This document shows positions 135 through 16,443 of a stretch of 23,787 nt of DNA, piece after piece (position 1 is the stretch's first letter; each line of letters begins with the position of its first letter). Origin of the DNA: a virus; IMG/VR virus record IMGVR_UViG_3300023109_000141, positions 1 through 23,787 of that record. One strand, written 5' to 3'. A program made the translations under genes and the position numbers. Below the pieces are notes generated by a model. It did no database searches. It was not told the DNA's origin and saw nothing but the letters and a program-made list of their open reading frames with translations.

Positions 135-3100
135 TTAATTAATGTATATTGCAACTTTTGGTGAACCCGCTGAACCATTGGCGACATAGACGGAGTTATT
201 ACCGCTAGTGGGGAATGGAGATATTCCGTGGCTGTGATTACACCAAAAGTTTTCAGCATTGTTCAAAATTTCACGAGATAATGCCAAAACACTATAATCC
301 CCGCCAGTGAGACTAACGCCTGAAGTTTCTTGATGCCAGTGTGTTTGATACCCCGCAGAGTTTGTTCCAGATCCAGAATTCGCAAACGCAGAAGGACCAA
401 TAGTAGTAGTATTAATTGGTCTTACATTACAAGTTAACAAATCTGCAATTGCATATCTTTGTGTAGCAGTCCCAGAGTTGCTGGTAAACACATATGTGAT
501 TGTTGTTCCTGCCGCAATTTTAGAAGCAAAATACGAGTCAGTTGCATAACGATTTTCATAAGTCGGCGAAAGGGCAGAGATGTCGTTTGAAGCAACCGCG
601 TTCAATTCATATCCGTTAACATTATTATATCCATAAGTGTTATAATAAGCAACCAACGTTCCATAAGTTGGATCTTCTAAGCACAAAGGACCAGTCGTAC
701 CCCAAATAGGATGTTCGTCGGTAGTGAACAATGTGGCGCCTGTGGCAAAGCCTGATGGTAGTGACGGTATGTTAGTAACGTTCCAATCATTGAGGTTCTG
801 ATCAAATGCAGCAGCGTTATTGAACATAGAAGTCATGTTGGTAACAGCGCCAGTGTCCCAACCAGATATACTCCAAGAAGCCGGTGCAGTTAAGTCAAAG
901 ATATATGCTTTACCTGAAGTAGTACCACCAGCATCATCTTCGCCCCGAGCACTGACGATAGCATAAGTATCAGTAATGATTACTTTGGATCCAAAGTAAT
1001 CATTTGCGCTCGTACTATAAGCATTAGGATTATCTAAAGTATGGAGTAATGCACCAGTGGCATTGTTGTAGATATATGCTTTGCCTGATCTAGTACCACC
1101 AGCATCATCTTCTCGATAAGCACCGACGATAGCGTAAGTATCAGTTATTGCTACTGAGTGTCCAAAGTAATCATTTGCACTTGTACTATGAAAATTAGGA
1201 TTATTTAAGGTATGTACTAATGCACCAGTGGCAGTGTTGTAGATATATGCTATACCTGAATAGGAAGCAAGCGCCTGAGCACCATATTCAGCATAAGCAC
1301 CTACGATAGCATAGGTGTCTGATATTGCTACTGAGTATCCAAAGTAATCATTTGCGCTCGTACTATAAGCATTAGGATTATTTAAGGTATGTACTAACGC
1401 ACCAGTGGCAGTGTTGTAGATATATGCTTTACCTGAATTAGCACCGCCAGCATCATCTTCAGCCCAAGCACCGACGATAGCATAAGTATCAGTTATTGCT
1501 ACTGAGTGTCCAAAGTAATCATCTGCGCTCGTACTATAAGCATTAGGATTATTTAAGGTATGTACTAACGCACCAGTGACAGTGTTGTAGATATATGCTT
1601 TACCTGAAGTAGTACCACCAGCATCATCTTCGCCCCGAGCACTGACGATAGCATAAGTATCAGTTATTGCTACTCTGTATCCAAACATATCATCTGCACT
1701 TGTATTATAAGCATTAGGATTATTTAAGGTATATACTAACGCACCAGTGGCAGTGTTGTAGATATATGCTTTACCTGAACCAGTACCGCCAGCCTCATCT
1801 TCGCCCCAAGCACCGACGATAGCATAGGTGTCTGTTATTGCTACTGAGGATCCAAAGTTATCATTTGCACTCGTACCATAAGGATTAGGATTATTTAAGG
1901 TATGTACTAACGCACCAGTGGCAGTGTTGTAGATATATGCTTTACCTGAATTAGCACCGCCAGCATCATCTTCAGCCCAAGCACCGACGATAGAATAGGT
2001 GTCTGATGATGCCATTGCGTATCCAAACGTATCATTTGCGCTCGTACTATAAGCATTAGGATTATCCAACGTATGCTTTAATGCAACCGAAAACTCACCA
2101 CTACCAAATTTAGATGCGTCTTTGAACATACTACTCATATTGGTGACAGTGCTGACATCCCAAGAACTAATATCTTCATTGAATGCCGTGGCATTCGCCA
2201 ACATCGATTCCATATTAGTAATCGGTGCTGATGTCTCGATGCCGACATTAGGAATGAACTGATATCCAGCCGGCGCAAAATTGTTTCTCCAAGTTGAGCT
2301 GGTAGGATCTGTTGCAGTATTGCTCATTGGGTATGCATAGCGCCCCTTAAATATGTAAACCGCCCCAGAATTGCTCTGAGAAGCGGAATCTTCCCCTTTC
2401 GCGGAAGATGCAAAAAACCTCCCCGAAATTGCAACTTCAGTTCCAAACCGATCATCGGATCCGGTGGCAGAATATGTGTTCGGATTATCTATAGTATGTA
2501 ATAAGCTACCTGATACTGCGTCATATACATAACATTTGCCAGAATCTGCTCCCGCAGATCCAGATTCATACCACGCACTTACAAATACTGATCTTTGGTC
2601 AATAGCGACAGACCATCCCATATAATCAAACTCTGTTCCGTTGTCGGGATTTGGGTTGTCGATTGTGTGTAATAACGTGCCGGCAGATATGTCGTATATG
2701 TATACCTTACCGGAACCCGCCCCTACCGCATCGTCAGATTCGCCGAAAGCACCTACTACAAGATAGTTTCCGTCAATTGCGCAGTCAATTCCAAAGTTGT
2801 CTAACGAGCTTGTCGAGTGAGCATTTGGATTGAGGAATGTGTGTATTCTGAGACCGGTTGATGCGTTGTAAACATATGCTACGCCCGAATTACTTCCGTC
2901 AGCAGCATCCTCTTCTACCGTAGACACTACCACGTAATTTCCAGAAATGTCTACGACTTGACCAAATTGATCGCCCGTAGGCGCTCCATATGCGTTTGGA
3001 TTGGTTAACGTATGAATAACATTTCCAGCAGACGCCGAGCAAATGTACGCCTTATCTACCCCAAATCCACCTACGACAACAGTCCCAGAATCTATTTTGA

Positions 3101-4091
3101 CCGAATGGCCGAAATAAGCACCAGCATCTGGGGAGTTTATTGTTCTCAGCAAAGATCCTGACATATTGAATATGTCGACTTGCTCTGCAGATCGGTTTCC
3201 GACTACGATATATGTCCCGTCAGTTCCTACCGCATTTCTCCTTGCCCAGCTTCCGATTTCTACTGGCGTCGGGCACAATATTGTCTGTTCTACTGATCCC
3301 GTAGCATTATTGATTACATAAACTGCACCATATCCGTTGTTTGCTTTATCGACACCTAGTACCGTATATTGATCGGTCATGTCTAATGATAAATCGGATT
3401 CGCCTATGACTGGTCCGAGGTCTTCGACATTTATAGAAAATGTGTTGGATACTGCAAGAGGAGACCAATCTATAAAAGAAGAACTTTCGGCTGGCGTTTG
3501 GGGGTTGCTAGAATTCAGAATAATCGCTGCAACTTTCCAGTCTGTCCCGCCCCAGTATTTCAGCTCAGATGATTGGGCATCAAATACGACTTCGCCATTG
3601 TTGCCGGATATTGGTAGGGCTTGTGTTGTTGCATATTCGGGAATATTGAATATATTTGAAGAATTTTGAAACTTGCCCGCAAGACTATTGTATACCAATG
3701 TTTGGTCATTTTCTATTGTCGACAATTGAACATTATGAATAGTTTCTAGAGTTATATTAGACCAAGATTTTGATGCTCCGTTGCTACCAAAAAATTTTTC
3801 AGAAGAAGTTGCGTCAATTACGATATATTCTCCCGAGACCGCAGAGCTCTGCAGCTGCAGAACATTTCTAATTGCTTTTGCAATTTGTCTAAGCTCGAAA
3901 GCTTGCGCTGTGGTTGCTAACACTTCCGCTCGACTATTGGTCGCGATTTCTAGTGCCGAGTTTTCTCGCTGCTCCAGCCTGGGCCCAACACTCGATAGAT
4001 TGTACAATTCTTTTGCCGATGCTGAGTTAGCAATTTCGATAGCCCTAGAGCTTATAGCAGAAATTGAGTTCAATAGATTTTCGTCGGTCAT
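135..4091 (-). CDS. Giant adhesin paralogue, 1318 residues, twin seven-blade FG-GAP sets and BspA-like repeats
   Basis: Last gene of the cassette, with AAGGAG eight bases before the ATG. Residues 1-80 match the shared helical domain (N52-S53-R54), and the cap LKYWGGTDWKVAA follows near 185-200. Residues about 218-581 form seven FG-GAP-type blades of 44-58 residues. A BspA/DUF285-like stretch (TNMESMLANATAFNEDISSWD) spans about 622-671. Residues 673-1067 are seven further blades of 57 residues, nearly identical to each other. The BspA-like pattern then resumes (GWDTGAVTNMTSMFNNAAAF). The last 190 residues (about 1130-1318) are a Tyr/Asn/Thr-rich end domain with HWHQE and a NHSHG segment. FG-GAP repeats build beta-propellers in integrins and lectins, and BspA-like repeats are surface-binding modules. 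The protein is therefore very likely a host-binding tip; the receptor is unknown. Fold and role are inferred from repeats. Confidence 0.86.
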   Translation of the reverse strand: MTDENLLNSISAISSRAIEIANSASAKELYNLSSVGPRLEQRENSALEIATNSRAEVLATTAQAFELRQIAKAIRNVLQLQSSAVSGEYIVIDATSSEKFFGSNGASKSWSNITLETIHNVQLSTIENDQTLVYNSLAGKFQNSSNIFNIPEYATTQALPISGNNGEVVFDAQSSELKYWGGTDWKVAAIILNSSNPQTPAESSSFIDWSPLAVSNTFSINVEDLGPVIGESDLSLDMTDQYTVLGVDKANNGYGAVYVINNATGSVEQTILCPTPVEIGSWARRNAVGTDGTYIVVGNRSAEQVDIFNMSGSLLRTINSPDAGAYFGHSVKIDSGTVVVGGFGVDKAYICSASAGNVIHTLTNPNAYGAPTGDQFGQVVDISGNYVVVSTVEEDAADGSNSGVAYVYNASTGLRIHTFLNPNAHSTSSLDNFGIDCAIDGNYLVVGAFGESDDAVGAGSGKVYIYDISAGTLLHTIDNPNPDNGTEFDYMGWSVAIDQRSVFVSAWYESGSAGADSGKCYVYDAVSGSLLHTIDNPNTYSATGSDDRFGTEVAISGRFFASSAKGEDSASQSNSGAVYIFKGRYAYPMSNTATDPTSSTWRNNFAPAGYQFIPNVGIETSAPITNMESMLANATAFNEDISSWDVSTVTNMSSMFKDASKFGSGEFSVALKHTLDNPNAYSTSANDTFGYAMASSDTYSIVGAWAEDDAGGANSGKAYIYNTATGALVHTLNNPNPYGTSANDNFGSSVAITDTYAIVGAWGEDEAGGTGSGKAYIYNTATGALVYTLNNPNAYNTSADDMFGYRVAITDTYAIVSARGEDDAGGTTSGKAYIYNTVTGALVHTLNNPNAYSTSADDYFGHSVAITDTYAIVGAWAEDDAGGANSGKAYIYNTATGALVHTLNNPNAYSTSANDYFGYSVAISDTYAIVGAYAEYGAQALASYSGIAYIYNTATGALVHTLNNPNFHSTSANDYFGHSVAITDTYAIVGAYREDDAGGTRSGKAYIYNNATGALLHTLDNPNAYSTSANDYFGSKVIITDTYAIVSARGEDDAGGTTSGKAYIFDLTAPASWSISGWDTGAVTNMTSMFNNAAAFDQNLNDWNVTNIPSLPSGFATGATLFTTDEHPIWGTTGPLCLEDPTYGTLVAYYNTYGYNNVNGYELNAVASNDISALSPTYENRYATDSYFASKIAAGTTITYVFTSNSGTATQRYAIADLLTCNVRPINTTTIGPSAFANSGSGTNSAGYQTHWHQETSGVSLTGGDYSVLALSREILNNAENFWCNHSHGISPFPTSGNNSVYVANGSAGSPKVAIYIN
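891..2075 (-). repeat. Seven ~171-bp near-identical tandem repeats (FG-GAP blades)
   Basis: Seven units lie in tandem with a period of 171 bp. The fifth in coding order is 177 bp. The landmark attagga starts at 1023, 1194, 1371, 1542, 1713, 1884 and 2055. The consensus blade is HTLNNPNAYSTSANDYFG, then S-V-A-I-T-D-T-Y-A-I-V, then GEDDAGG, then SGKAYIYNTATGALV. Blades 1 and 4 share an identical middle, as do blades 3 and 7, while blade 5 has a replaced segment (YGAQALASYS). The upstream blade set (about 2346-3440) lacks this DNA-level similarity. Confidence 0.95.
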
Positions 4092-4136
4092 TTAGCCAAC
4101 TCCTTAGTAGATGATGATTGTACTATGGCCAAATAA

Positions 4137-4165
4137 TGTGCTCGGACAAACTATGTCCGAGCACA
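4137..4165 (-). other. Perfect 12-bp inverted repeat between adhesin genes
   Basis: TGTGCTCGGACA (4137-4148) and TGTCCGAGCACA (4154-4165) are exact reverse complements around a five-base loop. On the minus strand the stem is followed by ATTATTTGG, which is T-rich but not a clean T-run. It begins only eight bases after the upstream stop. It may be a leaky terminator, an mRNA-stabilising end or a processing site that sets the ratio of the small and giant adhesins. Confidence 0.85.
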
Positions 4166-4172
4166 AGAGTTT

Positions 4173-4712
4173 CTAGGATACCGCGACGCTATACCACCCA
4201 GAACCGGTGAATATATACATTCGGTTGTTAGATGTCACTAGCGCTTGGTCTCCTGCAGAATTTCCGCTGACGGGAAGCTCAGAAGGATTTGTAAAAACTG
4301 ACATTCCTCCAGCTGGAGCCGAAAATGAAAACTCTCCAGAAGTTGGATTATACGAAACATCTCCAGAAGATTGTACCATCTCTCTGGTTCCCTGCTGCGA
4401 ATAATATTGGTTCGATGAGCCCGCAGGGACATCATCTGAATTAGCAATTGACACTCCTCCGGTATCACTCTCTCTGGTGATAAGCTTATTTACGCCTCTG
4501 CTTAATCTGTCTATATCTTTAGCGGTTGCAGTTGTCGTCAATGATAGGGCTCTGATATTAAAATCAGTTTCTACTTCTCCATCTGTATCCAGTCCGGTAT
4601 TTTTAGCGGCTCTGGATAATTTTAACATACTGGTCGAATTCGCAGCACCCACTTCTGAGCGAATCTTAACTTTCATTGCCCCGATTGATGCTTGTAAATT
4701 TGTATCTGCCAT
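4173..4712 (-). CDS. Adhesin paralogue, 179 residues, minimal cap
   Basis: Third gene of the cassette, starting MADTNLQASI like the first gene's MADSNLTTSI, with GAGG ten bases before the ATG. The shared helical domain carries N52-I53-R54 in register with the first and fourth genes. The adapter differs: DDVPAGSSNQYYSQQGTRE followed by a VSYNPTSGEFSFSAP strand pair. SxNQYYxxxRxR-type segments of this kind are common in phage fibre proteins. It ends with the cap NNRMYIFTGSGWYSVAVS. No extra domain is attached. A strong hairpin follows its stop, before the largest paralogue. It is likely a trimeric structural or adaptor protein. The evidence for kinship with its neighbours is the aligned N-terminal landmark and cap, not overall identity. 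Confidence 0.8.
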   Translation of the reverse strand: MADTNLQASIGAMKVKIRSEVGAANSTSMLKLSRAAKNTGLDTDGEVETDFNIRALSLTTTATAKDIDRLSRGVNKLITRESDTGGVSIANSDDVPAGSSNQYYSQQGTREMVQSSGDVSYNPTSGEFSFSAPAGGMSVFTNPSELPVSGNSAGDQALVTSNNRMYIFTGSGWYSVAVS

Positions 4713-4740
4713 GTCTATTATTCCTCGTTATTTTGTATTA

Positions 4741-5331
4741 TTATGAAGAAACAAATGAACCGAACGCGGTCCATGCACTTCCATTCCAATAATAAATGTT
4801 GCTATTCTCTATAACAAAAGCAAAAGCGCCTGAAGACGCACTTGCTGGCAAACTCGCGACTGTACTATATTCTTTAGCAGTAGTCTTATTTGTGAGCTCG
4901 CCGCCGCCCCAAGCTCCAGAGTTGTATATTGGCACTTGGCCCGCCGCAAGCCCAGACAATTCAGATACGTCTGATAATGCAGGAGCTCCCCAAGAAAGAT
5001 TTGTCCCGTCTGTCGTGAGATATTTGCCAGAATTGCCAGACTGTACAGGAAGTTCTCTTCCGGACTGGGTATTAGGCTGAACTAGATCTAAAACTTTTGA
5101 TAAACTGTCCGCCAAGTCCAAAAGAACATCCACATCATCCTCTGTTGCAAGAAGAGTTTCTAGTCTCGTGTTGATCAATGATTCAATAGTATCATTGTCG
5201 GTCTCTTTCAAATTTTTAACCATTCTTGCATATTTTAAGAGATCATCCTTATTTGCAGTAATGATTTGTGATTCGATGTCAGCGACCATTAAAAGTCTTG
5301 CTGAATCTAATGCGCTATCTAAATATGACAT
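4741..5331 (-). CDS. Adhesin paralogue, 196 residues, minimal cap
   Basis: Second gene of the cassette, with CGGAG eight bases before the ATG. The first 80 or so residues are the shared helical domain, with N54-T55-R56 two residues later than in its neighbours. The stem adapter is clear: SGKYLTTDGTNLSWG near residues 100-114, then GQVPIYNSGAW. The protein ends with the uninterrupted cap IYYWNGSAWTAFGSFVSS. GKYLTTDGT and LYYW-type caps are widespread in phage fibre proteins. Nothing is added beyond the cap, so this may represent the ancestral form, a short spacer or a capping subunit. The large upstream and downstream paralogues show that the same end can accept whole extra domains. Function in attachment or baseplate decoration is inferred. 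Confidence 0.8.
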   Translation of the reverse strand: MSYLDSALDSARLLMVADIESQIITANKDDLLKYARMVKNLKETDNDTIESLINTRLETLLATEDDVDVLLDLADSLSKVLDLVQPNTQSGRELPVQSGNSGKYLTTDGTNLSWGAPALSDVSELSGLAAGQVPIYNSGAWGGGELTNKTTAKEYSTVASLPASASSGAFAFVIENSNIYYWNGSAWTAFGSFVSS

Positions 5332-5358
5332 TCGTGTTTCTCCGTTATAATTCTTTTT

Positions 5359-6249
5359 TTAGTTTGCAGCCGTTACATCGACCCAAGGGCTGGCCACGGT
5401 AATAGTTCCTACCATTGCTGAATGATTGCCGCACTGATAATATAAAGTGCTGGGTGCGTCATAAGGAACTGTGATTGTCACATTACCTGCTGTGGATCTA
5501 GAGTTTGATACTCCGCTCGTATATTCTCCTACATAACTTCCTGCAACAAACCCAGCACCCGAATCTGTCGTGAAATACAAAGGGTGTCCTGTGGTAGTTG
5601 AACCGTCCAGCGCAAATGTGTATGTACTTCCTCTATAAAAAGTTAATGCAGGATTATTTTCGGTATCGACGACATATGCACCACTAACGGCAGTTACATT
5701 GTGCGTTGCGCTTTTTATGTAATAAAATTTGAAGTCAGATCCGACAAGGATAATTTCGCCCTTTGTTGACTGTGCTGGGATGGCTGATATATCAGCAAAT
5801 GCTCTAAATTTCGCTGCGGCAGTAGGGGTGGCTGATAGTTTATTGGCAGTTTCGTCATATACCAAAACGTCGCCGTCTGAGGGAGTTCCTACTAGTGCGT
5901 CCATGTCGGTCAACGAAACCTTACTCCAAGAAGTCGACATTCCGTTTGTCTTTAGCACACTTCCTGCAGAAGACGAGTCATCCGGAAATTGAACTCCGTC
6001 TACAAACTTAGTTTCTAGCATGTTAGCCAGTGCTCGGGTCAATTTGAGCTTTTCGTCTATGGTTGATCCAGAATAAAGAGTGAGTATTCTGGAATTAACA
6101 GCGGCCTCAGCGGCCGCGTCATCAGTTTTTTTAATCTTTTTAATAGCATCTGTAATGTCTGCAAGTTCTGATGCGCTAGCACCACCAATCAAAGTCTGAG
6201 CTCGACTCAAGACTGCTGCGATTGATGTGGTTAGGTTTGAATCTGCCAT
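5359..6249 (-). CDS. Adhesin paralogue with inserted cupredoxin-like domain, 296 residues
   Basis: This is the first gene of the four-gene cassette, with an AAAGGAG ribosome site. Residues 1-80 are a helical domain shared with the next three genes, with N52-S53-R54 as a landmark. Residues about 90-175 are a stem adapter (VLKTNGMSTSWSKVSLTDMD, GDVLVYDE). The cap hairpin is split: FYYIKS ends at residue 180 and SPWVDV resumes at 287. Between them is a beta domain starting near NPALTFYRGSTYTF (199-212). It has His222 in GHPLYF and then Cys273, His276 and Met279 in YYQCGNHSAMVG. This is the ligand set of type 1 copper proteins, although the short C-x2-H-x2-M spacing is not that of plastocyanin. 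Related YYxCxxHxxM segments occur in marine phage structural proteins, from memory. Whether copper binds is unknown; the fold may serve purely as a binding tip. Confidence 0.83.
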   Translation of the reverse strand: MADSNLTTSIAAVLSRAQTLIGGASASELADITDAIKKIKKTDDAAAEAAVNSRILTLYSGSTIDEKLKLTRALANMLETKFVDGVQFPDDSSSAGSVLKTNGMSTSWSKVSLTDMDALVGTPSDGDVLVYDETANKLSATPTAAAKFRAFADISAIPAQSTKGEIILVGSDFKFYYIKSATHNVTAVSGAYVVDTENNPALTFYRGSTYTFALDGSTTTGHPLYFTTDSGAGFVAGSYVGEYTSGVSNSRSTAGNVTITVPYDAPSTLYYQCGNHSAMVGTITVASPWVDVTAAN

Positions 6250-6306
6250 GTAGGGTTCTCCTTTGGTAAATTTGATTAATTTATTATTATAAAGTCTTTA
6301 TGTGTT

Positions 6307-6314
6307 TATTTATA
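6307..6314 (-). promoter_or_regulatory. T4-type late promoter TATAAATA (for the four-gene adhesin cassette)
   Basis: A perfect TATAAATA on the minus strand, 57 bases before the ATG at 6249. An AAAGGAG ribosome site lies in the leader. No other copy of this motif was seen before the following three genes, so all four are probably transcribed from here. Confidence 0.86.
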
Positions 6315-6369
6315 GATTTATTTTTCTGAAACCCTCGAATTTGATTGTGCTTAAAATTTATTTTGGGCT

Positions 6370-6585
6370 TTATGACTCTCTTAACTCCTGAGATGTGCCA
6401 ACAAAATATAAACTTCCGTCTAATACCCTCTCTGCGACATCAAACATCTCTCGCTGATATTTAATATAATCTTTTTTTTCTTCTTTACTAGAATCTGGAT
6501 TATAGAAATTGAAGTTTTCTAAATTTTTTTCGATCTTGCTTATAAACGTGAGGAGTTGTGCTCCGTGTATAGTTCTTTTACTCAT
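6370..6585 (-). CDS. Small helical protein, 71 residues, unknown
   Basis: The ATG lies inside the last codons of the 68-residue gene (ATGAGTAA overlap), and the nearest GGAG is 13 bases upstream. It is therefore probably translated by ribosomes finishing the gene before it. The protein is charged and helical, with ISKIEKNLENF and SSKEEKKDYIKYQREMFDVAERVL stretches, and the last dozen residues are SLYFVGTSQELRES. No catalytic motif, signal peptide or membrane segment is seen. No clear terminator follows; the gap to the next promoter is short and AT-rich. The coupled pair may act as a complex, for example in fibre assembly or regulation. This is inference and I recognise no family. Confidence 0.72.
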   Translation of the reverse strand: MSKRTIHGAQLLTFISKIEKNLENFNFYNPDSSKEEKKDYIKYQREMFDVAERVLDGSLYFVGTSQELRES

Positions 6586-6784
6586 CAGCTAACATTAACT
6601 CCAATATGGTCAAGTAGTTTTTTACTAATTTTAAATGAGATTTATATTCTTCTAGTTCTTTATCGTCTCTGAAGTCTGCCAGATAGCAATTCTGTTTTAG
6701 AATCGCGACAGATTCGCTTATGACTTCTCTCACCCTTTCCGGACTTCTTATGGTCTGAATATTATATAATTTCATCGGAACCAT
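6578..6784 (-). CDS. Small helical protein, 68 residues, unknown
   Basis: The protein starts MVPMKLYN, with GGGAG eight bases before the ATG, so the first Met is preferred over the internal Met4. It is predicted mostly helical and charged, with SPERVREVISESVAILKQN and a later ELEEYKSHLKLVKNYLTILE stretch that looks amphipathic and could form a coiled coil. A single Cys is at residue 33. There is no signal peptide or membrane segment. The stop overlaps the start of the 71-residue gene by eight bases, which implies translational coupling. Its own late promoter among fibre genes suggests an assembly helper, chaperone or small virion part, but nothing in the sequence proves this. I do not recognise the family. 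Confidence 0.75.
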   Translation of the reverse strand: MVPMKLYNIQTIRSPERVREVISESVAILKQNCYLADFRDDKELEEYKSHLKLVKNYLTILELMLADE

Positions 6785-6813
6785 TTAACAATCTCCCAAT
6801 TATGCATGTCTAT

Positions 6814-6821
6814 TATTTATA
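6814..6821 (-). promoter_or_regulatory. T4-type late promoter TATAAATA (for two small genes)
   Basis: A perfect TATAAATA on the minus strand, 29 bases before the ATG at 6784 and about 20 bases past the upstream terminator. The arrangement isolates the two small genes as their own late unit. Confidence 0.85.
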
Positions 6822-6842
6822 ATATATTTTTTGATCTGATAT

Positions 6843-6872
6843 AAAAAAAGGGGAGCTTGCGCTCCCCCTTTA
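6843..6872 (-). terminator. Rho-independent terminator after the long fibre gene
   Basis: On the minus strand, GGGGAGC (6861-6867) and GCTCCCC (6850-6856) form a 7-bp GC-rich stem with a GCAA tetraloop, followed directly by seven T residues (6843-6849). It sits 17 bases after the fibre stop and ahead of the next late promoter. Confidence 0.93.
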
Positions 6873-6889
6873 TCACAATAGATATTTTA

Positions 6890-9800
6890 TTAAATATCAG
6901 ACATTGACATTACAGATACTCTAACATGGCTTGATTCCGTGAGGTAACAAGTGACTTTGTTTGAAGTAGTCTGTTCTACGGGTACGAGGTCATTAGCATA
7001 CAGACCGTCGTCGCCCAATACCATAACTTGGACAATCAGATAATCTGAGCTCAAGTTGTGCTGGACTTCGTGGGTCAGAGCTGTTGCTGTAGACTGATAA
7101 ACAAACTTCGTAGAGTTTACTGCAGTTCTGATCGCGCTGTCTCCGGCGATTCTGGCAGCCTGTTCTGTCGCAAGATCCGACTCAACATCGCCAATTTCAG
7201 ATTCCAATTGATCCTGAGATGCTTTGATCGCTGCATCCAACAACACATCAACGGCCTTAAGTGAACTTCCACCTTGCGCGCCATTAATGTAGTTTGTAGT
7301 TGTGTGCGCTACGTATGTGCCGTCAGTTTCGAGACCAGCGGCGAGCTCGATCGCGTCAATTTCAACGCCTACGTTTGCTGCTACATCTGATTCGAGTGTA
7401 GCAATCGCATCTGTGTTGACTTTGATCTGCTGAGACAACTGCAAATCTGCATTATGGAGCGAAGTTGCATCATCAATGTAATCAGCACTTGTATGTGGAT
7501 CATATGCACCAGTGGCCAAAAGGCCTGCGCCGGTTTGAGTGACCGTAAGTTCTGAATTGATTGCTGAGTCAGCAGCTGTACGATCAATTACTTCTTGTGC
7601 AATTGCATCGGAAGCAACTTTGATCTGAGCGTCTAACAACTGATCCGCTTGATATAGAGTCCCTGCACTCTGAATATAGTTTGAGGTTTGATCTGAATCA
7701 TACCCGCCACTTGTGGTCAGGCCGGCAGCTGCTTGTGTCGAATCCAACTCGGACTGAATGGCAACAGCGTCAGATTCTACGGCAGCAATTTGAGCCATAA
7801 CTGAAGCAGAAACCCTAACACCGCTAGCAGACTTAGACATAGTGCCTCCGTCCAACTTCAACTGAAGAGTAGCATCAGTATGAATCGAGGGGGTCGAGCC
7901 ATCTTGAGACAGCATTAAGCCAGAATCTGACGCAAGGTCTAAGCCAATTTCGTCAGAAGGGAGTTCTACAACACCAGCACCAAATGCCAAGAACAGTTCG
8001 TTTCCGTCTTTCTTGATACCCGCACCAGCAAGGATCTGGCCCGCGCCAGAGAACTGGATGAAGTGGACGTCAGTCGTGCCAACTGTAGCAACTGGCTCGC
8101 CAAGAACCCAACCAGTATCTGCATACTGATTACCGCTTGTGACAAAGATAAAGTCTCCTCCTGCCATTTCAGCCGGGGTGTCGAAATCTGATGAACGAGT
8201 CAATACTGTTGTCGAAGTAACGTCGTAAATACCGTTGTGAGCTAGGTTTGCCTGACCATTAACGATAATTCTCTCGCCAATAGAAACTGAGTGTCCGTCG
8301 AGGTCTGTCGCAAGATTTAACACATTCGCCATGGTCAGCGTAGCGCCAACACCAACAGAACCATTACTATAGGTAACAACTCCACCAGAAATCGATTCCA
8401 GCGTACCGGTAAGAACTACTTGTGCCTGTTCGTGGACGTGAAGTCCTTCAGATACTGCGTCGACATATGCTTTGTTAGCAGCATCGCCGTCAGCAACTGG
8501 GGCGGAAAGGTTAGTAATTCTATTTGTGTCCATGTTCAAGACACCCGACATGGTGTCTCCAGATTTTGCAACTGCCGCGTCTGCGAGATCGTATGACGTT
8601 TTGATAGCAGCATCTAGGTCTGTGTCGACTTCGAACATGGTTAATGAGTTATCAATGTAGTTTGTAGATGTGTGAGCAACAAAAGCACCATCGGTGCCAA
8701 GACCTGCAGCTGCTTGAGTTGTAGTAAGCTCTACGTCTACACTGTTGAGTGTTGAAGCTAACAACTCGTCTGCTGAAACCAGTGAAGAGGCCCCACTGAT
8801 AATCGGAGCAGAACCGTTAGGAACATACTGGCCAGCACTGCTAAGGCCCGAACCGGTTTGAGTCGAGTCGAGCTCAGTCTGGAGAGCCGTGACTTGAGAG
8901 GCTCTTAATGCTTCTTCCGTATCGAGATCGTCGGCGACAACTTTAAGCTTTGCATCCAACAACACATCAACGGCCTTAAGTGAACTTCCACCTTGCGAGC
9001 CATTAATGTAGTTTGTAGTTGTGTGCTCTACGTAGGTGCCGTTAGCTTCAAGACCGGTGGCAACTTCGATCGCGTTAACTTCAGCTTCTAGAGAGGCAAT
9101 ACCGCCTGATATAGAACCAGAAACTGAATCGGCAACAGTTTTGATTTGAGCATCTAGCAACACATCTGCGCCTTGCAACGAGCTCGCGCCATTAATGTAG
9201 TTTGTAGTTGTGTGACTAATGAACGAACCATCCGTGGCAAGCCCAGCGGCTGCTTGAGTAGTGGTAAGTTCTGAGTTAGTATTTGAAATAGCCGTCTGAT
9301 TTGCAGCATCACTACTAGCTCTAGTGGAAGCTTCTAATGTTAATGCATCATTGGCAGCTTTGAGCGCTACAGACAACTTAAGGTCTGCATCGCTTAACGA
9401 TGTAGCAGAACTAATGTAATCCGCAGATGAGTGTGCGTCGTAGGAGCCATCAGATGTGACAAGGCCAGCACCGGTTCTTGTTGCTTCGTCCTGAGTTTGG
9501 CGATTTCCCGATTCGGTAGTAACTAAGTCAGAAACAGCTTTGATCTGTGCGTCAAGCAATGCATCGACAGCCTTAACTGAAGTTCCGCCGGCAGATGCAT
9601 CAATGTAGTTTGTATTTACGTGAGCAGCAAAAGTGCCGTCGAGGTTCAAACCTACTGACGTTTCGATCGAATCCATTTCTGTGTGGATTGCAGCATCTGC
9701 AGCAGTCCGAGCAGCAGTTTCTGTTGCGATTGCAGCAGTCATTTCTTGCAAGCTAACAGTCTGACGTACTACGACAGCGTCATTAGCATCAAGACTAGAA

Positions 9801-10503: not shown

Positions 10504-13500
10504 CTATGATGTTAGGAGTCGCGTATCTGCTTGTGATGCCGTAATTCCGTAACCTGCCACAAGGGTCAAAACTCTCATTCCATTACCAAAAGGTTTGGTA
10601 GACATTAGCGCCTTGTATAGCCGCCTCTTGTCAGAGGTTCCGCTAGAGCTAAATCTGTCACTTGTAATCAGCGTGTCTTGTCCTACTGCACCGCCATCAG
10701 AAAACGCAATCAAATCCAATTCTTTTCCGGTAAAGAAGTATCGCTGGGATCCTAATCTATTCGGGAACTGAATTACTAATTGTCCATCCTCATTCAATGC
10801 AAGCTGTTCCAGTATATTTAGTACTGCATGAGAGTCTGTCTCAGAGATGCCTGCAAAAACATGCCTGTCCCAAGGTTTCAGAACATCTTTTTCGCGAACT
10901 ACAAATCGTCTAAATCGCCCCTGATTTTCGATATCGAAAGCTTTCAATTCTTGTTCTACAAATTCGTCGACTCGGAAATCAAATATTCTAGAGCCGAATT
11001 GATTTGTCAGGCCTTCTACGAAGACTGAGGTTGTTCTGTCTATCGTATCTCCGCTCGATTCGTCTACCGAGAAGAATGGCGTTAAATCAGAATACAGCAG
11101 GGGGGGTTCTGAAGTTTGATATACACAATGTACTGGCTGCGATAGCGAATTGTAATCCGGAACTCCTGATGTAGAATCGACGTGCCTCTGAATAACAAAC
11201 CAAGCATAATCGTCAGATTGTGAGCTTGCGGCCTGATCTCTCAGATAAAATACAAGGCCGTGATCTGCGACTGTCAGAGTATAACTCATTGGGTATGTTA
11301 GTGCAACATTCCTATCCTGCTTTCCAGTTCTTCGGAAGAAGCCCTTTTGCATTCTCAACGTGCCGGTATTAAACGGAGTATCAAATACTAATTCTGTACT
11401 AGAGCCTCTCAGATACTTGTCTTCGTACCTGAATTCTGATTTAGTAGATTCAGAACCATCCGCTGTTCCGCCGCCAAGAACTCTTTCTTCCTCGTTCCCT
11501 GCGGCTACTTTGTTGTGGTCTTTGTGTCCGACAATTCCCGCCGAAGGATTTAGCCCACTAGTTCTGATAGCCCTGAGCGATTGAACTTGCAAGAAATCCG
11601 AAACTTCTGGTGAAATTAGATGTGTTCTTGCTCGAACATATCCCGAGTATTGCGGCCTCACGCCACCAAGAAATCCTGGCTCTCTAAATTCGCCGCGCTC
11701 AAGACCATCAGCACTTTGAATAGAGGTTACTGTTCCGTCGTTCCTAATTTGATACTCTGTCGCGACATGCACCTTCAAATACTCGAATTCGGTATTGCCT
11801 TTATTTCCACCAACACCTTGATAGTTTTGAGTAGCAATAAAGGGAGATGCATCGGTTACTTCATAGCCTCTGCTTACCTCGAAACGAATTCTCCATGGCT
11901 GATCTCCGCCGACACCGCCCAGATTGGTGTTATCATTTGTTTCAAGAACAATGGGCCCAATCGAATAATCGGTAATAACTTCGAAACTTTCTAATTCCAG
12001 CCCACATTCGTGATATGGAAACGTAGAATAATGTGAATAGTTATCAGAAACTGAAACTTCTGGATGATAACCTCTCAAGTCTGGATCAAATGAAGCTTCT
12101 GGTCCTTTTCTGTCTCCTTGAAATATAAATCCTTTAGCAGAATAAGCAGATCCCGCCTCAGATACAAATTTAGGCCCTGCTGCACCAATAACATGTTGTT
12201 TGTATGACGTAAAATACTTGGTATTTCCGCCCAATGATGTTGGGTGAGTCAAAGCGTCCGACGAAGAACCGGCCTGGTTGTGATATCCAGCACCGACCGC
12301 GTCAGATAAGTGATTTATTGGGTCTGCAAACGTCCCAAAATCTCTTGCGAACGGAAATTTGATTTTAACCTTCTGCCTGACTAACGAAGACGGAGTTTGA
12401 GTCCTCACAAACCCGAGGGTTTGTAATGGGCCCAGACCTCCCGTATCGTCGTCATTGAAGTCATATAAAACCATCGGAGAGACTGTAATCTCTCCGGTAA
12501 AAACTGCCTCTGCGGGAAGATCCGACACAAAAAATGCATTGCTGATGTACTGTGTGCCGTCCCAGACTTCCATATCATATAATGTAATATCGGAAGGAAT
12601 CTCTGTATAGCCGTTGGATGTCATTTCGTTAGTAATTACTAAGAAGGTGTCATCTTCAAGCCCAGTCCCTGCTGTAACTATTGAGCTAAATGGATTTGGA
12701 GAATCTGTAGAGCCTGTAAGATATACTGATGAATACTTTGCAGAATTCTCGCGCATCAATCCATACGCACCGGTTTGGTTGTGTATGGTCGTCTTGTCCA
12801 TATATGCCCAAGAATCTGGAGTATATTCAAACTTAATGAAGTTTGATTCGAGACTCACTTTCATGAACTTAGAAATATAAGAATTTTTCATCATATGAGT
12901 CTTGATCGCAGATCCTAGCGCAGCAGAACTATAGTATCTTCTGTCCGCAACATACTCCAATGTCAAATCGAATGTTGTTGGTGTGCTATACGCGTCCGAG
13001 ATAGAGCTTTGCGAGATAAGTCCCTTCAAAATAATTTGGAATTTATCTCCGTAATATGCTTCGTTAGGTAACGAAAAGTCGATTTTATGACGATATCCGC
13101 CCGCGTAGTAAGATCCATTAGCATCAGAGCTTGGTCGAATCGAAGATCCGAACGACCCTTCGATTGCGGAAGTTCCGATAGCAGCAGGTATTGCATTTCT
13201 TGTAGCCGTGTCTACGACTCCCATACCAAACACGGATCTATCTGACTTGCTCCTTGTAGGTTCTGCAGCTTCGCTATAATTTTGGTAGTCATACCCGATT
13301 GATAAATCGAACCCAACCTCATTAGATCTGAATAAAATATTAGATGGGTTTTGCGAATCTATTTCGAAACTATATTCAGGAAGATTGTCATTGAACAGAC
13401 TTACTAAAGTAGCCGCAAAAATGGACACAGAAGAAGATTCTACTACAACTTCTAATTGGACCGGATCGCCAAACAAGACATCCCCGCTGCTGCCCGTATA

Positions 13501-16443
13501 TTTTCCTTTAATTCGCTGGAAGATAAATGTGTACGAATCGCCCAGCTGGAGTCCAGTTACGGGTAGCGATGTAGGAGAAGAATTGTCTTCGGTTTTTAGT
13601 GATATGGTCATAGACCCAAGCAAAGGCTTTGGTTCGACTTGCTCGGAAGTAAAGAATGTTTCTGACTTATCTAGCGCGATCCAGAAATGATGCTTATTGC
13701 CTTGGACGAGCTCTTCTTCCTTATACTGTACGAGGCTTGCCTCGGTAGAAGTTGAAAGGCCGGTAGTGGAGTCTTCTGGAGAAAACTTTACGCCGCGCGC
13801 AGAGTTTATTAAACACCTCTTGACCTTATTATACTCATTTTCGTAGATGAGTTTGGCAACTGTTCCGATACCGATGTATCCAGCAGAATATCCTGCTCCA
13901 GAAATAATTCCGCCCACAGGATCTTTCTTCAAGAAAGTTTTGCCTTCGCCGGAACCGTCGATCTGTCCGTTCGATTCCTCTGGCTGAATCATGTCCAGCG
14001 TTACGTAGCTCATTCTTTCTGTTGGAGATGCGCCCTTTCCATCATACTCATTTTGTTCGTCATAAGTTTGTCTAGCAGCGCCGCTGCCCAGGCTGGGGCG
14101 ATACTTCGTCCAACCTGTAACTAACGCAGGAAAAAATGTAGTCGTAGCAGCATTTTGAATATCTTGAGCTGCCCAACTAGGTATTGATACAGAATCACCG
14201 AGACCATAGGAAGTTCCCTGAGAGTCGTTGACTAGGTTGACAAGTTCTTGTGAGCTCAAAATCTGAGGTATGCCGCCAGGGACTGGAGTAAGATATTGCT
14301 TAATTCTTTCGTACTCGATTCTAAACGATAGAGAAGCTTGCGAACCGGTCCCAGCGGTGTTGCTGTATACTTGTGGCGCATTATTATCGGATAGTGATGA
14401 CAATTCTGTCTGAGAGCCAAACCTACTAGGCCTCGAGAAAGTTAATGCTCCGAATCCGCCGGTCTTGTCTCCCTTTTCGCCGAGAGTCCTGATTCCTGCG
14501 TTAGAAAATCCTACCGTCTGAGGTGGAATTCTAGTTCTTGACGAAACGATAGATTCTCCGCCAGTATAAGTTACCTCCAATATTCCGTCTGTTGGGTAGG
14601 GGGTAGTAGCTGAAGAGCCATTACTGTAGAATTTTTTATAATCGGCCGGTAATAACCGCAAGCTTGCAGCAGTTCCCGTGGTAATTAGCGTCCATTCAGA
14701 AGGAGAAGACATTACCGTCCAGTCGGATTCGTCAGTAGAAATAGATCCATTCGCGAGTTTTGGTTTGTATATCGTTGATACGATTTCTGCGTCCGGATTA
14801 GTCCCACGCAGTCTCTCTACTGCCAATTCTGTCAGCGTTATCGAGGTTTTTTGTGTCGAAATGGCGATTGTTTCAGTTTTATCTTGGAACCAACCGCTCA
14901 AAGTCGCGGTAGCTTGATCGTCGTCCCCAAAGGGAGTTTCTGAAAAAATCTTTTCGCCTGGATAAAAATCTTTAGATACAGCTTCTACTATGAGCTGTCG
15001 TCCTTCTGTTTGCTCTTCCCATTCCTCGATGAAAATAGTTTTTCTTTGTAAATTTCCATATGGTCGGTTTTCTACATTAACTCTGGTATTTGTCTTTGAA
15101 TATGTGGGATCTTCTGAGTCTGGAAGGTCATTTTCTGGAGCATAGTTTCCTCCATAAATCATTCCGGAGCTCGGAAGGCGATTTTTTAGCATTTTGGGTC
15201 CATATGAAATTTCTATATTTGTCCCATTCGGTACAGAAATTGGAGAACCAGCGGAATCTACAAATGTGACTCCCGTTGCAGTTACGTTATAGTCGGGATG
15301 GACTCCCATAGAGGTTAACTTGGTCGCAATACCATCTTCGGTAGTTGTGGTGATCATATACACCTGATCTATTGCGCTATCGAAATCTAAAATATTAAAC
15401 TCTGCAGCAAACTCTATCGAGCTTTTAACACCATCTGAAATGTGAGATGCGGTAGTACCTCTGACCCTAGAAAGAAGTTCTGCATCGTACATCATATTTT
15501 TTTCGAATATGTTTCTGCCAACAACACATGGATTTCCTGTGCTGTCTAAAAATTCTTTTACAACTCCAATAGCGCCCGATTGCTCTCCTATTATTCTCTG
15601 TCCTACTCGGAATTGAGCAATTTCCGTAAATCTTGCAGCTGCAGGATAAATTTCTTTAGCTAACGGCATGTTGTCGTCCGCGCCGTAGCTGTCGTTATCT
15701 CCCGCAAGAGACCCGGGCACTGAAGATTTTGCTACAAAATCGTGATCGTTAGCCCCCAAGAATACCCCAGCACCTTCTTCGCCGATGCTATCTAGTCCAT
15801 TAAAAACTCTTTCGTATTTATCTGCACCAATGTTGAAAATAATTTTTTTGACCGGACTTTGGTGACTGCTAATGCCAGTAATTCCGGATTTGCTTGTCTC
15901 ATTGGTCATCATATTTGATGGGTGTGGGTTTAAGTATGCGAAAAGTTCGGAATTTGGTCCGAGATATGCTGCAGACGATAATGATCCGGAAATTTGGGCT
16001 AACGTAGGAAATTCTGACCATCTTTTATTCCATCTGTCAGGATCTGCGTATGATTGATGTATATATTTAAATCGTTGGCCGGAGGGATTATCGCCGCTTT
16101 CCATAGAAAGATCATATACAAATCTGTTATGATCATGTTCGTTGACGGGGGGCACTGTGTAGCCAGGGACCGTGTCTGGGCTTTCATATGCATTACCATA
16201 CGCGCCTCCACCCAATGTAGAAGGGTCGGAATCATAATGATAAACAATAAATTTGTCGATAAATGAAGTTAGTTCGCTATCAGAAATGGTAAGTTTAATA
16301 ACCTCGGGTCCTACATCAGTAAATCCGTTGGATAATAAATCGTCTGCTAGCTGACTAAGAAGTGGTTTATCGTCATCTCTTTCTTTATCCCAATGATATC
16401 CGTCAAGATGTATAACATTATTTCGTTCAAGATTGACGCCCAT
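10504..16443 (-). CDS. Giant virion structural protein, 1979 residues, unknown family
   Basis: A single uninterrupted frame of nearly 6 kb starts MGVNLERNNVIHLDGYHWDK. AAAGGAG lies six bases before the ATG and a late promoter lies upstream. No signal peptide, transmembrane segment or enzyme motif is evident. Composition is Ser/Thr/Gly/Asp-rich and beta-type, as in baseplate or fibre shafts. Two internal segments, at about residues 960-1055 and 1130-1225, share a pattern: GDxY/F start, a P-containing beta strand, a helix of the A-x-L-V/I-x-x-L/H type, then a final beta pair. This may be a duplicated domain. The C-terminal 150 residues (RRFVVREKDVLKPWDRHVF onwards) look like a separate compact domain. 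It is the largest gene in the window and sits between baseplate-type and fibre-type genes, so it is probably a long connector or fibre. That role is inferred. Confidence 0.75.
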   Translation of the reverse strand: MGVNLERNNVIHLDGYHWDKERDDDKPLLSQLADDLLSNGFTDVGPEVIKLTISDSELTSFIDKFIVYHYDSDPSTLGGGAYGNAYESPDTVPGYTVPPVNEHDHNRFVYDLSMESGDNPSGQRFKYIHQSYADPDRWNKRWSEFPTLAQISGSLSSAAYLGPNSELFAYLNPHPSNMMTNETSKSGITGISSHQSPVKKIIFNIGADKYERVFNGLDSIGEEGAGVFLGANDHDFVAKSSVPGSLAGDNDSYGADDNMPLAKEIYPAAARFTEIAQFRVGQRIIGEQSGAIGVVKEFLDSTGNPCVVGRNIFEKNMMYDAELLSRVRGTTASHISDGVKSSIEFAAEFNILDFDSAIDQVYMITTTTEDGIATKLTSMGVHPDYNVTATGVTFVDSAGSPISVPNGTNIEISYGPKMLKNRLPSSGMIYGGNYAPENDLPDSEDPTYSKTNTRVNVENRPYGNLQRKTIFIEEWEEQTEGRQLIVEAVSKDFYPGEKIFSETPFGDDDQATATLSGWFQDKTETIAISTQKTSITLTELAVERLRGTNPDAEIVSTIYKPKLANGSISTDESDWTVMSSPSEWTLITTGTAASLRLLPADYKKFYSNGSSATTPYPTDGILEVTYTGGESIVSSRTRIPPQTVGFSNAGIRTLGEKGDKTGGFGALTFSRPSRFGSQTELSSLSDNNAPQVYSNTAGTGSQASLSFRIEYERIKQYLTPVPGGIPQILSSQELVNLVNDSQGTSYGLGDSVSIPSWAAQDIQNAATTTFFPALVTGWTKYRPSLGSGAARQTYDEQNEYDGKGASPTERMSYVTLDMIQPEESNGQIDGSGEGKTFLKKDPVGGIISGAGYSAGYIGIGTVAKLIYENEYNKVKRCLINSARGVKFSPEDSTTGLSTSTEASLVQYKEEELVQGNKHHFWIALDKSETFFTSEQVEPKPLLGSMTISLKTEDNSSPTSLPVTGLQLGDSYTFIFQRIKGKYTGSSGDVLFGDPVQLEVVVESSSVSIFAATLVSLFNDNLPEYSFEIDSQNPSNILFRSNEVGFDLSIGYDYQNYSEAAEPTRSKSDRSVFGMGVVDTATRNAIPAAIGTSAIEGSFGSSIRPSSDANGSYYAGGYRHKIDFSLPNEAYYGDKFQIILKGLISQSSISDAYSTPTTFDLTLEYVADRRYYSSAALGSAIKTHMMKNSYISKFMKVSLESNFIKFEYTPDSWAYMDKTTIHNQTGAYGLMRENSAKYSSVYLTGSTDSPNPFSSIVTAGTGLEDDTFLVITNEMTSNGYTEIPSDITLYDMEVWDGTQYISNAFFVSDLPAEAVFTGEITVSPMVLYDFNDDDTGGLGPLQTLGFVRTQTPSSLVRQKVKIKFPFARDFGTFADPINHLSDAVGAGYHNQAGSSSDALTHPTSLGGNTKYFTSYKQHVIGAAGPKFVSEAGSAYSAKGFIFQGDRKGPEASFDPDLRGYHPEVSVSDNYSHYSTFPYHECGLELESFEVITDYSIGPIVLETNDNTNLGGVGGDQPWRIRFEVSRGYEVTDASPFIATQNYQGVGGNKGNTEFEYLKVHVATEYQIRNDGTVTSIQSADGLERGEFREPGFLGGVRPQYSGYVRARTHLISPEVSDFLQVQSLRAIRTSGLNPSAGIVGHKDHNKVAAGNEEERVLGGGTADGSESTKSEFRYEDKYLRGSSTELVFDTPFNTGTLRMQKGFFRRTGKQDRNVALTYPMSYTLTVADHGLVFYLRDQAASSQSDDYAWFVIQRHVDSTSGVPDYNSLSQPVHCVYQTSEPPLLYSDLTPFFSVDESSGDTIDRTTSVFVEGLTNQFGSRIFDFRVDEFVEQELKAFDIENQGRFRRFVVREKDVLKPWDRHVFAGISETDSHAVLNILEQLALNEDGQLVIQFPNRLGSQRYFFTGKELDLIAFSDGGAVGQDTLITSDRFSSSGTSDKRRLYKALMSTKPFGNGMRVLTLVAGYGITASQADTRLLTS

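Follow-up and report, generated by a model that had tools for sequence, protein, structure and literature searches.

Among the described systems closest to the domain reported here, amicyanin, which groups with plastocyanin and pseudoazurin in PF00127, is a soluble secreted electron carrier built on the cupredoxin barrel, with its ligands in the order His ... Cys-x2-His-x2-Met and a strand following them. Rusticyanin is a periplasmic carrier in iron oxidation and has a longer ligand loop, and the multicopper oxidases, laccase included, share the cupredoxin fold. Metal is also known from phage particles, since iron occupies HxH sites in the tail fibres of phage T4 and has been proposed to do so in marine phages (the 'Ferrojan horse', PMC11705849), and cyanophages carry petE plastocyanin genes (PMC3037559). 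The cupredoxin fold and the type 1 site are thus already known, but their large-scale occurrence in phage structural proteins was not found described: among the open-access papers covered we found no account of a cupredoxin in a phage virion, the nearest published idea being the iron of tail-fibre HxH sites (PMC11705849).

We analyzed a 23,787-base stretch of a virus record (the window), in which a minus-strand gene encodes a 296-residue protein ending in a cupredoxin domain. This protein is best read as a virion appendage bearing a type-1-copper head domain, and we put at roughly 70% the probability that it is a true cupredoxin with a complete type 1 (blue) copper site, displayed on the virion as a head and stabilized by copper. 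The domain shares barrel, ligand order and following strand with amicyanin, but it sits in a phage structural-type protein and scores below the family cut-offs. Unlike the multicopper oxidases it is a single domain without type 2 or type 3 copper ligands, and with the iron HxH sites it has in common the idea of a metal in a marine phage tail, whereas fold, ligands and probably the metal differ.

The gene and its candidate copper ligands

Full-length relatives of the protein were found on eight IMG/VR contigs. Residues 181-296, encoded by 5359-5709, cover the C-terminal part, and the features of the gene are as follows.

5359-6249, minus strand: open reading frame of 296 residues, N-terminal module followed by cupredoxin domain; full-length relatives 66-71% identical
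5719-6249, minus strand: N-terminal module, residues 1-177, four predicted helices and then beta/linker; BLASTP matches to adjacent genes
5389-5694, minus strand: cupredoxin domain, residues 186-287, from the AlphaFold2 model and PDB matches
5584-5586, minus strand: codon of His222, candidate first ligand; weighted frequency 0.93
5431-5433, minus strand: codon of Cys273, at the end of model strand 103-108; weighted frequency 0.93
5422-5424, minus strand: codon of His276; weighted frequency 0.96
5413-5415, minus strand: codon of Met279, axial ligand position; weighted frequency 0.92

The original prediction had placed a complete ligand set, His222, Cys273, His276 and Met279, within 5359-5709, and all four residues can be read from the translation of the open reading frame. 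They follow the order His ... Cys-x(2-4)-His-x(2-4)-Met, and the domain proper contains no other His, Cys or Met, H183 lying just ahead of it. The ligand loop reads LYYQCGNHSAMVGTI. Its C-x2-H-x2-M spacing had been described as shorter between His and Met than that of plastocyanin, which is correct, but it is not unusual, as profile alignment reveals the same spacing in amicyanin (C-T-P-H-P-F-M-R-G-K-V-V-V, against C-G-N-H-S-A-M-V-G-T-I-T-V in the window domain). The first ligand is followed by Pro (HP), whereas plastocyanin and azurin have Asn at this position (HN); the HP is reminiscent of the laccase motif HPxHLHGH.

Fold and relationship to known cupredoxins

Residues 166-296 were modelled with AlphaFold2 from the window domain and 45 viral relatives, which resulted in a mean pLDDT of 91 (97-98 in the core) and eight strands of at least three residues, within the seven to eight strands of the cupredoxin Greek-key beta-barrel. 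Cys273 (C108 in model numbering) closes strand 103-108, His276 and Met279 (H111 and M114) follow in the loop that leads to the last strand (115-121), with His222 just ahead of strand 59-62; in the model, this placement is the type 1 copper arrangement. A Foldseek search of the PDB returned rusticyanin, plastocyanin and AcoP on top, and the best 21 matches were all single-domain cupredoxins. Rusticyanin, the best structural match, aligned with the model over 101-102 residues at 2.3-2.4 Å (VIA-align, Z 10-11, 22-24% identity), and laccase and multicopper oxidase domains reached a Z of about 10. The model of the full-length protein had a mean pLDDT of 56 and gave structural matches in the cupredoxin part only; it was used solely for the N-terminal helices, predicted with low confidence at residues 3-20, 26-42, 45-60 and 64-77. 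Matches in BFVD include 'beta-sandwich' proteins of Pithovirus/Marseillevirus relatives (A0A481Z6J5, A0A481Z7Q7 and A0A481YVH3, query TM 0.64-0.67) as well as phage proteins possessing an S8 peptidase domain and a cupredoxin fold.

Single-sequence searches with the full-length protein identified no Pfam family and, with phmmer, no match in the PDB. The window domain fell below the gathering cut-off of Pfam PF00127 (Copper-bind; 16.6 vs 21.2 bits) and the equivalog cut-off of the amicyanin model TIGR02657 (14.4 vs 110.2 bits), and no Pfam or NCBIfam model exceeded its cut-off. Searched against the PDB, a family profile built from 50 diverse domain copies (21-77% identity to the window domain) matched copper nitrite reductase (CuNIR) at an E value of 2.5e-5, amicyanin at 1.7e-4 and plastocyanin at 2.7e-4; in the alignments displayed, those with nitrite reductases and amicyanins, the Cys, His and Met coincide with the ligands. 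When the four ligand columns were masked, the score of the amicyanin fragment dropped from 24.9 to 10.1 bits, only narrowly exceeding the highest-scoring of some 4,800 shuffles, which indicates that the sequence homology outside the ligands is weak and that, beyond them, the relationship rests on the modelled fold. A cupredoxin fold with type 1 ligand placement, as originally proposed, is borne out by the confident model, by the matches to rusticyanin, plastocyanin and laccase, and by the profile matches. Indirectly, the positions of Cys, His and Met along strand and loop and the superposition on rusticyanin, itself a type 1 copper protein, also speak against the four residues lying far apart in the model.

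Capture of a soluble plastocyanin or amicyanin, active in the infected cell as an auxiliary metabolic protein, would have a parallel in the petE genes of cyanophages (PMC3037559). We regard this as extremely improbable, as the domain is embedded in large structural-type proteins that carry N-terminal modules instead of forming a short secreted protein, and it falls far short of the amicyanin equivalog cut-off; the candidate was rejected on this protein context and on the TIGR02657 score.

Conservation and joint loss of the ligands

Domain copies were gathered by profile search from 350 loci. The set H, C, H and M is present in 284 distinct copies, and most of the remaining copies are truncated where the fetched DNA runs out; those scored HC-- or HCH- stop at this edge and were not counted as losses. 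Ranked by relative entropy over 292 distinct domains (effective number ~28), the four ligands occupy positions 1-4 of all columns, so that the set goes well beyond what chance would give; the 50-row alignment, whose members share 21-77% identity with the window, shows almost no variation at them. The first locus search used the loop pattern LYYQCGNH, and repeating it with queries that lacked the loop led to the same result; among copies from loci found with a gp9 query cut before the loop, 111 of 111 retained every ligand inside the fetched DNA.

Clustering at 60% identity, with one truncated copy left out and degenerate copies read by eye, yielded 54 clusters. Four, three, two, one and no ligands are kept in 45, 1, 0, 3 and 5 of them, respectively, whereas 29.7, 19.2, 4.6, 0.5 and 0.02 would be expected had the ligands been lost independently at the same rates, the 54 clusters being not fully independent of each other. 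Detection bias opposes this all-or-none pattern, since copies with two or three ligands are easier to find than copies with none. The sole three-ligand copy, from S-CAM3, has lost the Met, i.e. the weak axial ligand. Across these alignments the four residues behave as one unit, like a metal site, and their being both the most conserved columns and jointly lost argues for selection on a metal site and against simple fold reuse. The co-conservation expected by the original prediction therefore stands, the ligands being the top four columns and kept or lost together, and so does its view that more than simple fold reuse is involved, given the strict, all-or-none pattern over 292 domains and 54 clusters.

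The site has nevertheless been lost in 8 of the 54 clusters, which persist with one or no ligand, and the cupredoxin fold is consequently usable without it. This persistence, and the frequent reuse of beta-sandwich domains by phages, would suit a scaffold alone, that is, a beta-sandwich for adhesion or spacing in which Cys, His and Met would be retained because folding or surface contacts need them. We judge such a scaffold quite unlikely, as it would predict neither the ligands as the most conserved columns nor their joint instead of one-by-one loss. Degenerate copies in phage baseplate-type proteins (loci L375-L377, L380-L383, L393 and L096) have a partial fold with most or all ligands gone, and degenerate copies often share a genome with an intact one.

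Type 1 sites accept other metals in vitro, and the site may bind a metal that is not copper in vivo (e.g. Zn, Ni, Co or Fe) or be filled opportunistically, in the manner of the HxH iron of T4 gp37; iron HxH sites in T4 tail fibres, proposed for marine phages too, lend this a precedent (PMC11705849). It is an unlikely account all the same, because the identity, order and spacing of the ligands match type 1 copper, Cys and Met form a soft set favouring copper, and the T4-like route finds no counterpart here, no HxH motif being involved. From the sequences, we infer that copper is the metal and that the virus particles probably bind it.

Distribution, genomic setting and proposed role

Searches with tblastn detected the domain in 338-354 phage records, nearly all of them Synechococcus and Prochlorococcus phages, the remainder being one or two pelagiphages, a few marine single-cell viruses and one lake actinophage; the hosts of the carriers include SAR11 and an actinobacterium. 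T4-like cyanophages carry the domain as the C-terminal part of gp9, the protein behind most of the records, and again in adjacent large baseplate-type proteins, with up to five copies per genome, some degenerate, and it is present in podophage-sized genomes as well (P-GSP1, Baldr). Among the records examined, the proteins are annotated as baseplate, tail-fibre, structural or hypothetical. The C-terminal domain of cyanophage gp9 (phrog_677, 'baseplate wedge tail fiber connector') is the same cupredoxin with all four ligands, and the phrog_677 match is limited to window residues 120-286 against profile positions 280-409 of 412. Orthology of the window protein to gp9 was rejected, since the C-terminal domain alone is shared and the N-terminal part is from another family.

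In bacterial assemblies, large lipoprotein-like proteins from marine Bacteroidetes terminate in this domain. It therefore has the look of a mobile extracellular domain rather than one invented by phages, and exchange between bacterial surface proteins and phage appendages is suggested. All four ligands are present in Bacteroidetes loci L366 (1772-4237), L367, L368, L369 and others. On L365, a contig filed as gammaproteobacterium that is probably a phage contig, two adjacent genes (2291-4243 and 4503-6914) carry the domain; one looks fibre-like and the other contains peptidase-like sequence.

This distribution bears on whether the centre could be redox-active in the virion, exchanging electrons with a host partner or acting as a trigger on host contact. 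Electron-transfer proteins use the same site, many carriers infect cyanobacteria, which possess cupredoxin partners, and the domain also occurs in large surface-type Bacteroidetes proteins. However, no partner or enzyme is hinted at by the sequence, SAR11 and an actinobacterium are also among the hosts of carriers, and an extracellular virion is without an obvious electron donor, so that we regard a redox centre as very unlikely.

At the DNA level the window has no close match among isolate phages. The two largest of the IMG/VR contigs with relatives of the cupredoxin protein, of 200 kb and 127 kb, both encode a T4-type gp23 capsid protein that is ~60% identical to the gp23 of Pelagibacter phage Mosig and of cyanophages such as S-SCSM1 and S-SM2, and the window is on this basis most likely from a marine T4-like phage. 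Residues 1-177 of the cupredoxin protein are homologous to the N-terminal parts of three adjacent genes, the module thus being found in four neighbours, with BLASTP E values of 5e-18 against the gene at 135-4091 and 8e-13 against that at 4741-5331.

4741-5331, minus strand: N-terminal-module paralogue of 196 residues without the cupredoxin, terminal hairpin IYYWNGSAWT, found by BLASTP
4173-4712, minus strand: N-terminal-module paralogue of 179 residues without the cupredoxin, ending in MYIFTGSGWY
135-4091, minus strand: N-terminal-module paralogue of 1318 residues with FG-GAP repeats and DUF285 stretches, found by BLASTP

The C-terminal parts of the four genes differ, comprising FG-GAP/DUF285 repeats, bare hairpins or the cupredoxin. 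Two of the paralogues close the module with the hairpin IYYWNGSAWTAF or MYIFTGSGWYSV, and the equivalent position of the cupredoxin protein reads FYYIK-[cupredoxin]-SPWVDV. Because FYYIK and SPWVDV flank the cupredoxin where the paralogues have the hairpin, the domain has apparently been inserted in the terminal hairpin of the module.

Upstream in the window are genes for a PAAR protein and for a protein with a tail-sheath-like end, which makes a tail or baseplate setting of the gene cluster likely. The 200-kb relative has at least nine module matches in several places, one of them adjoining gp23, and a protein similar to the 179-residue paralogue (4173-4712) adjoins gp23 there. With module copies next to gp23, the protein may also lie in the head, and the virion tip would be one candidate location; the name 'phage tail / virion tip protein' is one that we infer from the tail/baseplate-like gene cluster. 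The gene at 10504-16443 (minus strand) encodes 1979 residues, an odd size for a sheath, of which the last 260 match the tail-sheath family phrog_12249 (E 6e-37). Virion proteomes exist for T4-like cyanophages.

For a copper-stabilized head, we propose that the N-terminal module, which several genes of this phage reuse, probably serves as the virion anchor of the protein, and that the cupredoxin would be the displayed, variable head. Apo-cupredoxins fold without copper, as established for plastocyanin, and for this reason the copper is probably acquired outside the cytoplasm. Folding of the apo domain, as with these proteins, probably takes place in the cytoplasm of the host, and one copper ion would be taken up once the cell has lysed or within the host envelope. 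This ion would clamp the loop of the first His and the Cys-His-Met loop near the C terminus together and so hold the exposed 'northern' end of the barrel in place, which would stabilize the head and give shape to a surface for binding or assembly. Strict conservation of the ligands points to a role after release, which could be stabilization of the exposed end, shaping of a contact surface or, less likely, redox chemistry.

More widely, the chances seem about even that virions of aquatic phages regularly include blue-copper centres, and that their copper state may gate stability or adsorption. On this reading, many marine cyanophages, pelagiphages and related phages would bear at least one cupredoxin head on their tail-associated proteins, and their virions would bind copper. 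Some 350 sequenced isolates already contain the domain, and the colour and EPR signal of a blue-copper centre would make the copper claim easy to test. Should copper occupy the site, abundant marine phages would represent an extracellular class of cuproproteins and cyanophage baseplates would have a likely metal-dependent element, and phage particles would be tied to the copper chemistry of the ocean, as has been proposed for iron.
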